Source of the DNA: Bacteroidota bacterium
GTDB lineage: Bacteria; Bacteroidota; Bacteroidia; Palsa-948
DNA: 64,000 nt
Direction of reading: 5' to 3'
Assembly: GCA_016213405.1 (NCBI GenBank)
Contig: JACRAM010000016.1
Coordinates: forward strand, 1-64,000
The notes under the pieces are model-generated. The model searched no databases. It was not told the origin of the DNA and saw only the letters and a program-made list of their open reading frames with translations. The number at the start of each line of letters is the position of its first letter. Position 1 is the stretch's first letter. This document shows positions 1 through 64,000 of this stretch, piece by piece. The translations under genes and the position numbers were made by a program.

Positions 1-147
1 AGAAAAGCAATTAACCGCAGAGAACACAGAGAAAACAACACGCGGAGAGCCGCAGAGAAAATGCAATCTTGTATTCTCAGCGGTTCTCTGCGTAAAACCT
101 CAGCGAACTCTGCGGTAAAAATGTATTTGCGTAACATCAGTGATTAA
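1..147. repeat. Long hairpin repeat, copy A (empty-site copy)
   Basis: Near-identical to 44799-45029. The left arm repeats the word CGCAGAG/ACAGAGAA and the right arm repeats its complement (TCTCTGCG, CTCTGCGG), so the unit can fold on itself. Copy A lacks two insertions that copy B carries. Its left edge may extend beyond the window. Confidence 0.85.
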
Positions 148-10065: not shown

Positions 10066-10096
10066 AACCCGCGGGATAAAATATCCAACGGGTTAA
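10066..10096. repeat. CCCGT...ACGGG element in the rpsL leader
   Basis: AACCCGCGGGATA ... TATCCAACGGGTT followed by AA forms a stem with a short A-rich loop, ending 12 nt before the rpsL start. It belongs to the same family as 21794-21826 and the TTAA-flanked insertion at 44813-44871. Confidence 0.75.
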
Positions 10097-21793: not shown

Positions 21794-21826
21794 TTAAAAC
21801 CCGTAGGATAATATCCAACGGGTTAA
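21794..21826. repeat. Minimal TTAA-flanked CCCGTAGGATA element
   Basis: TTAA, then AACCCGTAGGATA, ATATCCAACGGG and TTAA: terminal inverted repeats directly back to back, bounded by TTAA on both sides. It lies between rplF and rplR and appears to be a short form of the 59-bp insertion at 44813-44871. Confidence 0.85.
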
Positions 21827-42129: not shown

Positions 42130-42474
42130 CTCCGCACTTTAGTGCGGAGCACAGCATATCAAAACAAGTAGGGCTTTAGCCGCAATGCACTCAAACTCTT
42201 ACATAAGGGCATCTCTAAAATCTATTTTGAATGATGAACATTTGAACATTTGAACAGCGAACATTCGAAGTTTACTTCTGATTTCGTAATTCAAATGTTC
42301 AATTATTCTATTGTTCACCCCGTTGGATTCACCCCGTAGGTCGGACAACCAACGGGGCAAGTATCCTACGGGGTTCATGAGTTTTTAGAGGTTCCCATAA
42401 GACATTGATTTTCTTTTTTCAGGGCTAAAGCCCTTTAATTATTGCTTGCTATTTCCCCATGCTAAAGCATGGGG
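42130..42474. repeat. Composite cluster of nested palindromes (gene-free region)
   Basis: It contains CTCCGCACTTTAGTGCGGAG (42130-42149), outer arms CATAAGGGCATCTCTAAAAT (42202) and TTTTTAGAGGTTCCCATAAG (42382), GAACATTT/AAATGTTC word arms (about 42234-42316), CCCCGTTGG/CCCCGTAGG with CCAACGGGG/CCTACGGGG (42318-42374), AGGGCTAAAGCCCT (42421) and CCCCATGCTAAAGCATGGGG (42455-42474). No gene is seen in 42087-42572. Confidence 0.8.
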
Positions 42475-44726: not shown

Positions 44727-44812
44727 CTGCATTCAGTGGAAAAGGTTTTTTTATTGACGAAAGTATGCCTCAGGTCAGAATATTAACGTGAGTTACGCAG
44801 AAAAGCAATTAA

Positions 44813-44871
44813 TCCCGTAGGATAATCTGTTCGTTACAAGTTTAGGTCTACAACAATCATATCCAACGGGG
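44813..44871. mobile_element. MITE-like 59-bp insertion with TTAA duplication
   Basis: Terminal inverted repeats TCCCGTAGGATA and TATCCAACGGGG flank a unique core of about 33 nt. TTAA is present on both sides (44809-44812, 44872-44875), whereas the empty copy at 1-147 has a single TTAA at this place. This fits a target-site duplication. Confidence 0.8.
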
Positions 44872-44977
44872 TTAACCGCAGAGAACACAGAGAAAACAAC
44901 ACGCGGAGAGCCGCAGAAAAAATGCAATCTTGTATTCTCAGCGGTTCTCTGCGTAAAACCTCAGCGAACTCTGCGGT

Positions 44978-44998
44978 TGGGTTTCCATCCCTTCGGGA
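44978..44998. repeat. 21-bp mini-element, copy 2 (insertion)
   Basis: TGGG-TT-TCCATCCCTTCGGGA is absent from the matching position in copy A (about 117) but present in the composite repeat at 387-407. Confidence 0.75.
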
Positions 44999-45025
44999 AA
45001 AAATGTATTTGCGTAACATCAGTTA

Positions 45026-45748
45026 TTAACTCACCACACCGTTAACCGTATTGCCCCAGTCGCCTGTTTCTCCGCGGGTATTCAGGTAGCGTGCGCGGTA
45101 ATAAGCGGTGGCTTTCAACTGAGCATCGGTAAAATGCGCGGTGTATAAAAATTTTCCGGTATGAACCAGCGTGTGCCAGTCGCTCTCTTGCGGAAAAGGG
45201 GCAGGCGCAGGAGTTTGTTCAGCAGGCACGGGCACCGGAACAGGCACCGTTTTAGGCACGCCTTCATCGCTTACAGCTATTTGTATTTCAGTTTCTCTTA
45301 CTCCTTTTGGTTTTGCCTGCGTGTGCGGATTAGCGGGGTCGGTGATTTTCAGAATGTGTTTGAGGTGCATCATTTTGTCAATGCTGATGGTTGGCGCGCC
45401 TTCGGGAACTGCCACACGCGTAGGATGCGGGTCGCGCAGTTTTAAGCCAAGCACCACGCGGTCTTGCTCGGTGAGCACACTTTGCGGAATATCTTTATAG
45501 ATACTGCTGAGCAATGTTTTCCATTGCTTGATCATCGTGTCAGTATTTTTAACAACGGTTTTTGTTTTTTTGTCAGGGTCAATGTATTTTGCCCATAGCG
45601 CATCCCACAGGGGTTTCAGGGTATTAACGGCTGTTAAGTTGGCGCCTGAAATCTGAAGGCGCGCTGCGTTGGCGTTCAGATACGGGCAAACAAGTTGAAT
45701 GTAATCATTGAACTTGGCGCGGGTGGTTGGATAGGGTCCTCCTGGCAT
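45026..45748 (-). CDS. Orphan 240-residue protein, no signal peptide
   Basis: No family recognised. The N-terminal ~130 residues look helical (TTRAKFNDYIQLVCPYLNAN, KNTDTMIKQWKTLLSSIYKD), a linker rich in Val/Pro follows (KTVPVPVPVPAEQTPAPAP), and the last ~45 residues look like a fibronectin-III-type strand set (KATAYYRARYLNTRGETGDWG). No signal peptide or sorting domain. It follows the lysine-rich repeat miniprotein by 34 nt on the same strand, suggesting one operon; a LuxR-type regulator lies divergently upstream. Its stop codon is inside the copy-B repeat. Confidence 0.75.
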   Translation of the reverse strand: MPGGPYPTTRAKFNDYIQLVCPYLNANAARLQISGANLTAVNTLKPLWDALWAKYIDPDKKTKTVVKNTDTMIKQWKTLLSSIYKDIPQSVLTEQDRVVLGLKLRDPHPTRVAVPEGAPTISIDKMMHLKHILKITDPANPHTQAKPKGVRETEIQIAVSDEGVPKTVPVPVPVPAEQTPAPAPFPQESDWHTLVHTGKFLYTAHFTDAQLKATAYYRARYLNTRGETGDWGNTVNGVVS

Positions 45749-62762: not shown

Positions 62763-62793
62763 TTTGCGAAGTGGAAAAGAATAAGTAAGTTTG
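62763..62793 (+). promoter_or_regulatory. Promoter of the terminal T9SS cargo gene
   Basis: TTTG at 62763-62766, a 19-nt spacer, then TAAGTTTG at 62786-62793: both Bacteroidota promoter boxes at ideal spacing, 18 nt before the ATG. Confidence 0.8.
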
Positions 62794-62811
62794 CAGAGTA
62801 ATTATCCGGCA

Positions 62812-64000
62812 ATGAAAAAAGTTTTTACTCTCATCGCATTATTTTTATTCATCGATTCCTTTGCACAGGGAGAATATATAGTTGAGATTAATAGAACAAA
62901 TGGAAATTTTAATAAAATTACTTCTGCTATACCGGGTATTACGTATGTTTATGCAAATGTACGTGCATATAATGAAACAAATGGAACATTCATTTTTCAG
63001 GGAGGGATGATAAGTCCGGATTATTTATATTCCATCGATGTTACTAATGGTTCAGTCATTTCTAATCCCCCATTTACATTTGTTGATGGCAAAGAGTTCG
63101 AATTTGATAATTCAACAGGAACTTTATATGGATTATTTTTTGACACTGGACTGTCTCAATACTTCTTAGAAACTATTACCCCCACAACAGGGGTGCATGT
63201 TAATGTATCCACAAGCCCTATTCCCAATATGGGTATTTGCCAGGGTTGTTCTACGTTTGATGAAATCAATAATAAATATCTACTAAAAGGGAATAATAAT
63301 ATTTTATCAATTGATGCAACTACCGGAATTATAAGTTCAAATACAGCACTTGGTTTATTATCAGGAGAAGTTTTAGTAGGTGCTTCTCTCTCTTATGACA
63401 ATTCGACTGGTATATTATATGGACTACTATGGGATTCTAATATCACAAATAAGTATTTTTTAGTCTCAATTAACCCATCAACTGGAACAGTTACAAAAAT
63501 TGGCTCGGGAACTACACTTCTGGAGCAAGGTGGTAGTGCTATAATAGACAAAGTCAATCAACAATATATTTACCTGTATAGTAGTGTGTCTGCAGGAGGA
63601 TGGGAAATTGCGACAATAGACATTGCGACAGGAAATGTTATATACAATGCTCTCATAGCACCTTTTAATGCTAACGATAATTTCTATAGTTTGGAATATG
63701 ACAACATTCAAGGAAAGTTATATGCTATTCACTGGGAGACAAACAGTACAGGAATTTCAGAACAAAATCATTTAAACAATTTCATAAACATTTATCCAAA
63801 TCCCTTTTCTACACAGACAACTTTGCAGATTGACCCCGTAGGAAATCTTTCCAACGGGGCAGGCAATCCTTTACACAACGCAACCCTCACAGTTTATAAT
63901 TGTTTCGGGCAGGCAGTAAAGTCATTAGTCATTAGCCATTCGCCATTCGTCATTGAGCGAGGCAATTTACCAAGCGGGTTGTATTTCATTCGGCTCATGC
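62812..64000 (+). CDS. Secreted propeller-like protein with T9SS type A domain (3' end cut by window)
   Basis: 396 codons are visible with no stop before the window ends. Signal peptide MKKVFTLIALFLFIDSFAQ, then propeller-like units (DVTNGSVISNPPFTFVDGKE, SYDNSTGILYGLLWDSN, IDATTGIISSNTALG), and a type A sorting domain beginning INIYPNPFSTQTTLQI and reaching GLYFIRLM at the edge. The sorting domain contains a CCCGTAGG...CCAACGGGG element (63833-63860) and a GTCATTA heptamer run (63921-63955), both in frame. Only a few residues are probably missing. Confidence 0.88.
   Translation, partial: MKKVFTLIALFLFIDSFAQGEYIVEINRTNGNFNKITSAIPGITYVYANVRAYNETNGTFIFQGGMISPDYLYSIDVTNGSVISNPPFTFVDGKEFEFDNSTGTLYGLFFDTGLSQYFLETITPTTGVHVNVSTSPIPNMGICQGCSTFDEINNKYLLKGNNNILSIDATTGIISSNTALGLLSGEVLVGASLSYDNSTGILYGLLWDSNITNKYFLVSINPSTGTVTKIGSGTTLLEQGGSAIIDKVNQQYIYLYSSVSAGGWEIATIDIATGNVIYNALIAPFNANDNFYSLEYDNIQGKLYAIHWETNSTGISEQNHLNNFINIYPNPFSTQTTLQIDPVGNLSNGAGNPLHNATLTVYNCFGQAVKSLVISHSPFVIERGNLPSGLYFIRLM
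63833..63860. repeat. CCCGTAGG...ACGGGG element inside a sorting-domain coding region
   Basis: ACCCCGTAGGAAATCTTTCC then AACGGGGC. Same terminal inverted repeats as the insertion at 44813-44871 and the copies in the ribosomal operon; here it is translated (DPVGNLSNGAG). Confidence 0.8.
63921..63955. repeat. GTCATTA heptamer run inside a sorting-domain coding region
   Basis: GTCATTA, GTCATTA, GCCATTC, GCCATTC, GTCATTG: five 7-mers in a row, translated as SLVISHSPFVIE, a hydrophobic strand of the T9SS domain. Confidence 0.88.

Follow-up and report, generated by a model that had tools for sequence, protein, structure and literature searches.

Very small hairpin elements inserted with a 4-bp target duplication in a Bacteroidota genome

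Short hairpins repeated in the genome of this Bacteroidota bacterium (G000) were gained as DNA insertions, and they probably belong to one family of tiny mobile elements that are non-autonomous and moved in trans by a putative enzyme that recognises the folded foot of the hairpin. Insertion at the family's sites is shown by the comparisons reported here, as are the target duplication, the constraint on the hairpin and a burst specific to this lineage; the recognition of the folded foot and the trans-acting enzyme are what we infer. The copies present in the window, i.e., the whole stretch of 64,000 nucleotides analysed, are listed in Table 1; all the further sites named by a sequence-only reading of this DNA (near 10066, 21794, 42318-42374 and 63833) exist, with the matches running over 10068-10092, 21800-21822, 42319-42372 and 63835-63858.

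As sampled here, the order to which G000 belongs comprises one genus, and the comparison set was made of its seven genomes (G000 and six congeners). A loose search for the 16-base hairpin foot gave 64 matches in G000 and none with the reversed control, as compared to 0, 0, 1, 0, 0 and 2 in the six congeners. Empty sites were found in congeners at four loci, two of them inside one ABC-transporter gene (C26) that holds two in-frame copies, each insertion measuring exactly 30 bp (26 + 4); for the first of these sites, four congeners show the empty state in their DNA and a fifth in its protein sequence, and for the second G021 does so, its flanks being intact. The site at 21800 of the window is empty in six congeners and that at 10066 in two (AAAGATAAATAA), the insertion amounting to 31 bp (27 + 4) in the latter case. 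The element previously placed at about 42318-42374 has its ends there, but it really consists of two nested hairpins; the inner insertion is 30 bp long (26 + 4), and the outer hairpin occurs without those 30 bp at three other copies (C42, C55, and C61).

A further filled and empty pair lies within a longer host repeat. Positions 1-147 (copy A) and 44799-45029 (copy B) of the window had been read as one repeat, with which the alignment of the copies agrees, and the 59-bp inverted-repeat unit followed by a second TTAA that had been described in B is present, A having a single TTAA. The 63 extra bases attributed to B are a real insertion, but the total difference between A and B is 84 bp (63 + 21), as B also carries a 21-bp indel near 44980, the TTTCCATCCCTTCGGGAA palindrome, which is unrelated to the 59-bp unit and had been missed. 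The 63-bp and 21-bp differences assort independently among the host-repeat copies (Table 1). Since the host-repeat copy at C63 is empty with a complete left flank, the emptiness of A is not an artefact of the contig end. At C36:7672 and at 44813 of the window, hairpins with unrelated cores occupy the same TTAA of the host repeat, an observation that plain copying does not explain and that counts against the mobile-hairpin explanation; a hot site hit more than once, or an exchange of cores, could have produced it.

Table 1. Hairpin copies, host-repeat copies and associated features
Feature	Position in window	Strand	Remarks
Left target duplication TTAA	44809..44812	.	repeat copy B
Long-loop hairpin element, 59 bp	44813..44871	+	copy B; foot TCCCGTAGGATA / TATCCAACGGGG, 35-nt core
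Right target duplication TTAA	44872..44875	.	copy B
Empty-site TTAA, repeat copy A	11..14	.	complete empty copy exists at C63
Host-repeat copies A and C35			neither 59-bp-type insert nor 21-bp palindrome
Host-repeat copy C36			insert only, core differs from that of B
Host-repeat copy C63			21-bp palindrome only; insertion site empty
Host-repeat copy B			both insert and 21-bp palindrome
Short-loop copy upstream of ribosomal protein gene (rpsL by N-terminal sequence)	10067..10093	+	flanks TACA/TAAA
25-bp copy between two genes of conserved ribosomal-protein region	21799..21823	+	flanks TAAA/TAAA
56-bp outer hairpin with second hairpin in its loop	42318..42373	-	flanks TTCA/TTCA
26-bp inner hairpin, nested in 42318 loop	42332..42357	+	CCCCGTAGGTCGGACAACCAACGGGG
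26-bp copy in frame (PVGNLSNG) in Por_Secre_tail (T9SS sorting) domain	63834..63859	+	flanks TTGA/CAGG
Reading frame enclosing the 63834 copy	62785..63999	+	Por_Secre_tail, E 1.8e-7

The host repeat (window 1-147 and 44799-45029; C1:1-160; C36:7657-7864) has inverted-repeat ends of its own, ACTGATGTTACGCA ... TGCGTAACATCAGT, and looks like a larger MITE-like element, so that B would be a small mobile hairpin inside a bigger one. The TTTCCATCCCTTCGGGAA palindrome (about 44974-44994 in the window) occurs in B and at C42, C63 and C120, is missing from A, C35 and C36, and is perhaps a second mobile hairpin family. Contig ends falling within copies (C13, C17) were considered as the boundary of an IS and rejected, a longer shared repeat being found instead.

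Identical tetramers flank the element at 28 of 44 independent loci in this genome, as compared to a mean of 10.5 and a maximum of 19 in 5000 permutations, and at 23 of 63 loci in other genomes (permutation mean 7.8, maximum 16), the excess of flank identity being confined to the 4 bp. Together with the empty copy at C63 and the empty sites of the congeners, this supports the earlier claim of insertion with a 4-bp target duplication. The duplicated tetramers had been given as TTAA; they are TNAA-like and mostly TAAA (TAAA 16, TGAA 4, TTAA 2, CAAA 2, TTTA 2, TCAA 2), TTAA being only one among them. At the remaining 16 of 44 loci the tetramers differ, the left one being often TTYA or TTAA and the right one TRAA, and simple duplication is therefore not the whole story; later mutation, extension of the palindrome or a donor tetramer carried along may be considered. 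Flanks that extend the palindrome (TTYA...TRAA) are also what might be expected if there were no single mobile family at all and the repeats were selected structured elements such as terminators or RNA hairpins, or local products of quasi-palindrome correction, an account to which the strength of the hairpins and the intergenic position of many copies also lend themselves. We consider it highly improbable, given that element-plus-4-bp insertions are precise at sites empty in congeners, including sites inside genes, that even rare tetramers (CAAA, TCAA, TTTA) match on both sides, and that an Rfam search of the window gave no match.

Structurally, the family is held together by its foot. In the 3.65-Mb genome the exact end pair CCCGTAGGATA...TATCCAACGGG was counted 36 times (0 for the reversed control pattern) and the 11-bp half-site CCCGTWGGATA 100 times (1 in the control). 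The conserved foot CCCCGTAGG/CCAACGGGG contains a fixed A.A mismatch; the upper part of the stem covaries, and the loop, of 2 to about 35 nt, is unconstrained. With a looser search the fixed part was reduced to the foot CCCGTAGG/CCAACGGG, the next pairs being AT/AT, AA/TT, AC/GT or TC/GA. An unbiased search with CCCGTWGGATA returned short-range pairs all of the A.A type, and simple hairpins with a perfect foot were few among about 180 copies, a proportion to be read with the preference of the copy-fetching searches for A.A. Most copies measure 25-64 bp. They form a shorter group of 23-32 bp, in which 26 bp is the commonest length, and a longer one of 55-64 bp, and a 38-bp form is intermediate; the cores of the 57-62 bp forms are mostly unrelated to one another. 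The "coreless" form, noted earlier at 21794, is the commonest type and no remnant. When the 17 distinct 26-mers of the genome are compared, pairing is seen in 97% of the cells, and the covariation score is 0.287 vs. 0.097 when shuffled (none of 500 shuffles as high), with 18 cells changed on both sides vs. 5.3; slid registers collapse. Both strands fold well as single-stranded DNA. Covariation could also stem from templated palindrome correction, as the account without a mobile family would have it, but the A.A mismatch has been kept, uncorrected. In Saprospiraceae MAGs (L121, L160, L163, L175), hairpins were also observed in short tandem arrays with a spacing of about 4-5 bp.

Inverted ends, a 4-bp target duplication and mobilisation in trans without coding sequence are also properties of ordinary MITEs, i.e., internally deleted derivatives of DDE transposons (e.g., IS1380- or piggyBac-like, with 4-bp TNAA/TTAA duplications), the full-length parent having been lost or being absent from the draft and the hairpin being a by-product of the inverted ends. 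A TTAA target and ends starting with CCC are piggyBac features that the present elements recall. A longer, transposase-bearing copy had been proposed as a check; end pairs 150-4500 bp apart were looked for in 1.1 Mb of loci and nothing credible was found, in a draft assembly that may lack the parent, and an origin as cut-down transposons was thus not borne out. Half-sites about 7.8 kb apart (C54, C61) were rejected as an autonomous element, as they belong to separate short hairpins. A profile search of the genome gave no PF13701 (IS1380-type) transposase, and PF01609 (DDE_Tnp_1) was discarded as the mover, its one weak gene being unrelated and having no relaxed hairpin copy nearby. A 26-bp form would moreover be very small for a DDE synapse, an upper stem that covaries without sequence conservation, next to a fixed A.A mismatch, would be unexpected for terminal repeats read by a protein, and TAAA rather than TTAA is the commonest duplication, against a strict piggyBac type. 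A MITE origin appears therefore unlikely.

The foot of the hairpin, with its GTAG and a mismatch that marks the strand, points in another direction: a HuH transposase of the Y1 (IS200/RAYT) type, which works on hairpins in single-stranded form, might move these copies as REP-like elements. Y1_Tnp has indeed 8 matches in this genome, and of 19 other carrier genomes 18 have genes for it, as do five of six congeners; atypical secondary structures have, in addition, been described on either side of Bacteroidetes Y1 genes (PMC6006769). Nonetheless, hairpins lie near only 3 of the 38 Y1 loci examined, one carrier (a KSB1 MAG) gave no Y1 match, and in the Y1 tree five of six G000 genes have congeneric counterparts, although the congeners are without the elements. 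GTAG lies within the paired stem of the foot and not as a tag 5' of the hairpin. Y1 transposition (IS200/IS605-type) is not known to make a target duplication, against which the tetramers here match far above expectation. Linkage to RAYT was accordingly rejected, the loci being 3 of 38 and the tree not tracking the carriers, except possibly for one divergent gene. This gene (C88:119399), with no close congeneric relative in the tree and about 1 kb from a copy, is the only Y1 gene that fits the distribution and may be regarded as a weak lead; a plasmid search with it returned distant relatives only. Overall, we hold movement by a Y1 transposase to be quite unlikely. At another locus (L100, C36:28500-31500) an IS21-type transposase gene was observed in two parts, with a Y1 transposase gene in the opposite orientation lying between them.

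In the mobile-hairpin explanation, a nuclease or transposase of the cell, acting in trans, would recognise the folded foot, either as a single-stranded hairpin or as a cruciform. With folding, no DNA loop would be needed for the ends of a 26-bp element to meet, and the A.A mismatch would indicate the strand to the enzyme; a staggered cut of 4 nt at TNAA would then receive the copy, the 4-bp duplication arising as the gaps are filled. In-frame copies were found in UbiD, with 12-13 extra residues as compared to E. coli UbiD (5m1c/2idb), in the ABC transporter and in proteins with a T9SS tail, including the copy at 63834 of the window, the element coding for the peptide PVGYxSNG or, in the reverse reading, TPLDxxPTG. 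Their persistence may be due to the summed length of element and duplication, often divisible by 3 (30, 36 bp), and to a foot that stays open in both of its coding readings. All eight in-ORF copies are in frame, a count that cannot be taken as separate evidence for selection: detection relied on the reading frame, which an insertion out of frame would have disrupted. The C26 ABC transporter (L308) also contains further insertions missing from the congeners (SLVPRPSSLVHSP, LHPSHSLTLSPSHSLFSESEKVRMKESEREK, and YGVRGSEQEKHTAVSASQLPTPNS), from which it follows that other repeat families insert in frame in this genome as well.

The exact hairpin was found in 109 stretches in a scan of named genomes. 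Carriers comprise many Bacteroidota MAGs and one cultured isolate, Terrimonas pollutisoli (L222), and, outside Bacteroidota, MAGs of Cloacimonadota, Stahlbacteria/WOR-3, KSB1, Latescibacterota and Omnitrophota, a list of phyla that mis-binned contigs could inflate. A Cloacimonadota MAG and a Stahlbacteria MAG (L139, L140) share one identical copy, the flanks being near-identical as well, and the viral contigs searched gave no match to the hairpin. A wider claim, which we advance only tentatively and regard as doubtful, is that of a bacterial mobile element that would be little more than one folded hairpin foot, crossing phyla, duplicating 4 bp at TNAA and seeding in-frame peptides into conserved proteins, through a new transposition mechanism that would make it the bacterial counterpart of mitochondrial GC clusters.

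Several known systems invite comparison. Rickettsia palindromic elements (RPEs) measure about 105-150 bp, with their target duplication listed as unknown (PMC2229807, PMC10969869). Compared by description, they are, like the present elements, palindromic and located both in intergenic DNA and, in frame, within genes of functional proteins, whereas most copies here measure 25-64 bp, outside the RPE length, have a clear 4-bp duplication and a different conserved foot, and occur in other phyla. In yeast mitochondria, GC clusters (GC42 and others) are tiny hairpins flanked by short direct repeats, in which the loops vary more than the stems and units merge and are shuffled (PMC4478555); the likeness is in the way of working, a structurally constrained hairpin, short direct repeats and no coding sequence being all found here, but the clusters belong to a eukaryote organelle, have AG or ACT repeats, and no sequence relation is claimed. 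REPs with RAYT (TnpA-REP) are short multicopy hairpins with GTAG in the foot, intergenic and sometimes in genes (PMC3733652, PMC6006769); they have GTAG/GTGG 5' of the hairpin and adjoin RAYT genes, in contrast to the paired GTAG, the lack of RAYT linkage and the target duplication seen here. Bacterial MITEs (Correia, RUP, Nezha and others), usually 50-500 bp long (PMC10969869), share non-autonomy, inverted ends and target duplication with the present elements, but often have a recognisable parent transposon, whereas here none was found in the 1.1 Mb of loci searched, most copies measure 25-64 bp and the commonest form is 26 bp. On these comparisons the hairpin family resembles RPEs and yeast GC clusters in its way of working, membership in neither being shown, and lacks defining features of REP/RAYT systems.

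How tiny palindromic elements such as RPEs, REPs and GC clusters move has been a standing question for decades. The present family offers an unusually clean case: the empty sites of the congeners are exact, the 4-bp duplication can be measured, the conserved hairpin foot bears a strand mark, and conserved proteins contain in-frame copies. As a carrier species stands against congeners that are nearly free of the element, comparing them offers a way to find the enzyme, and a 26-nt oligonucleotide can serve to test it.
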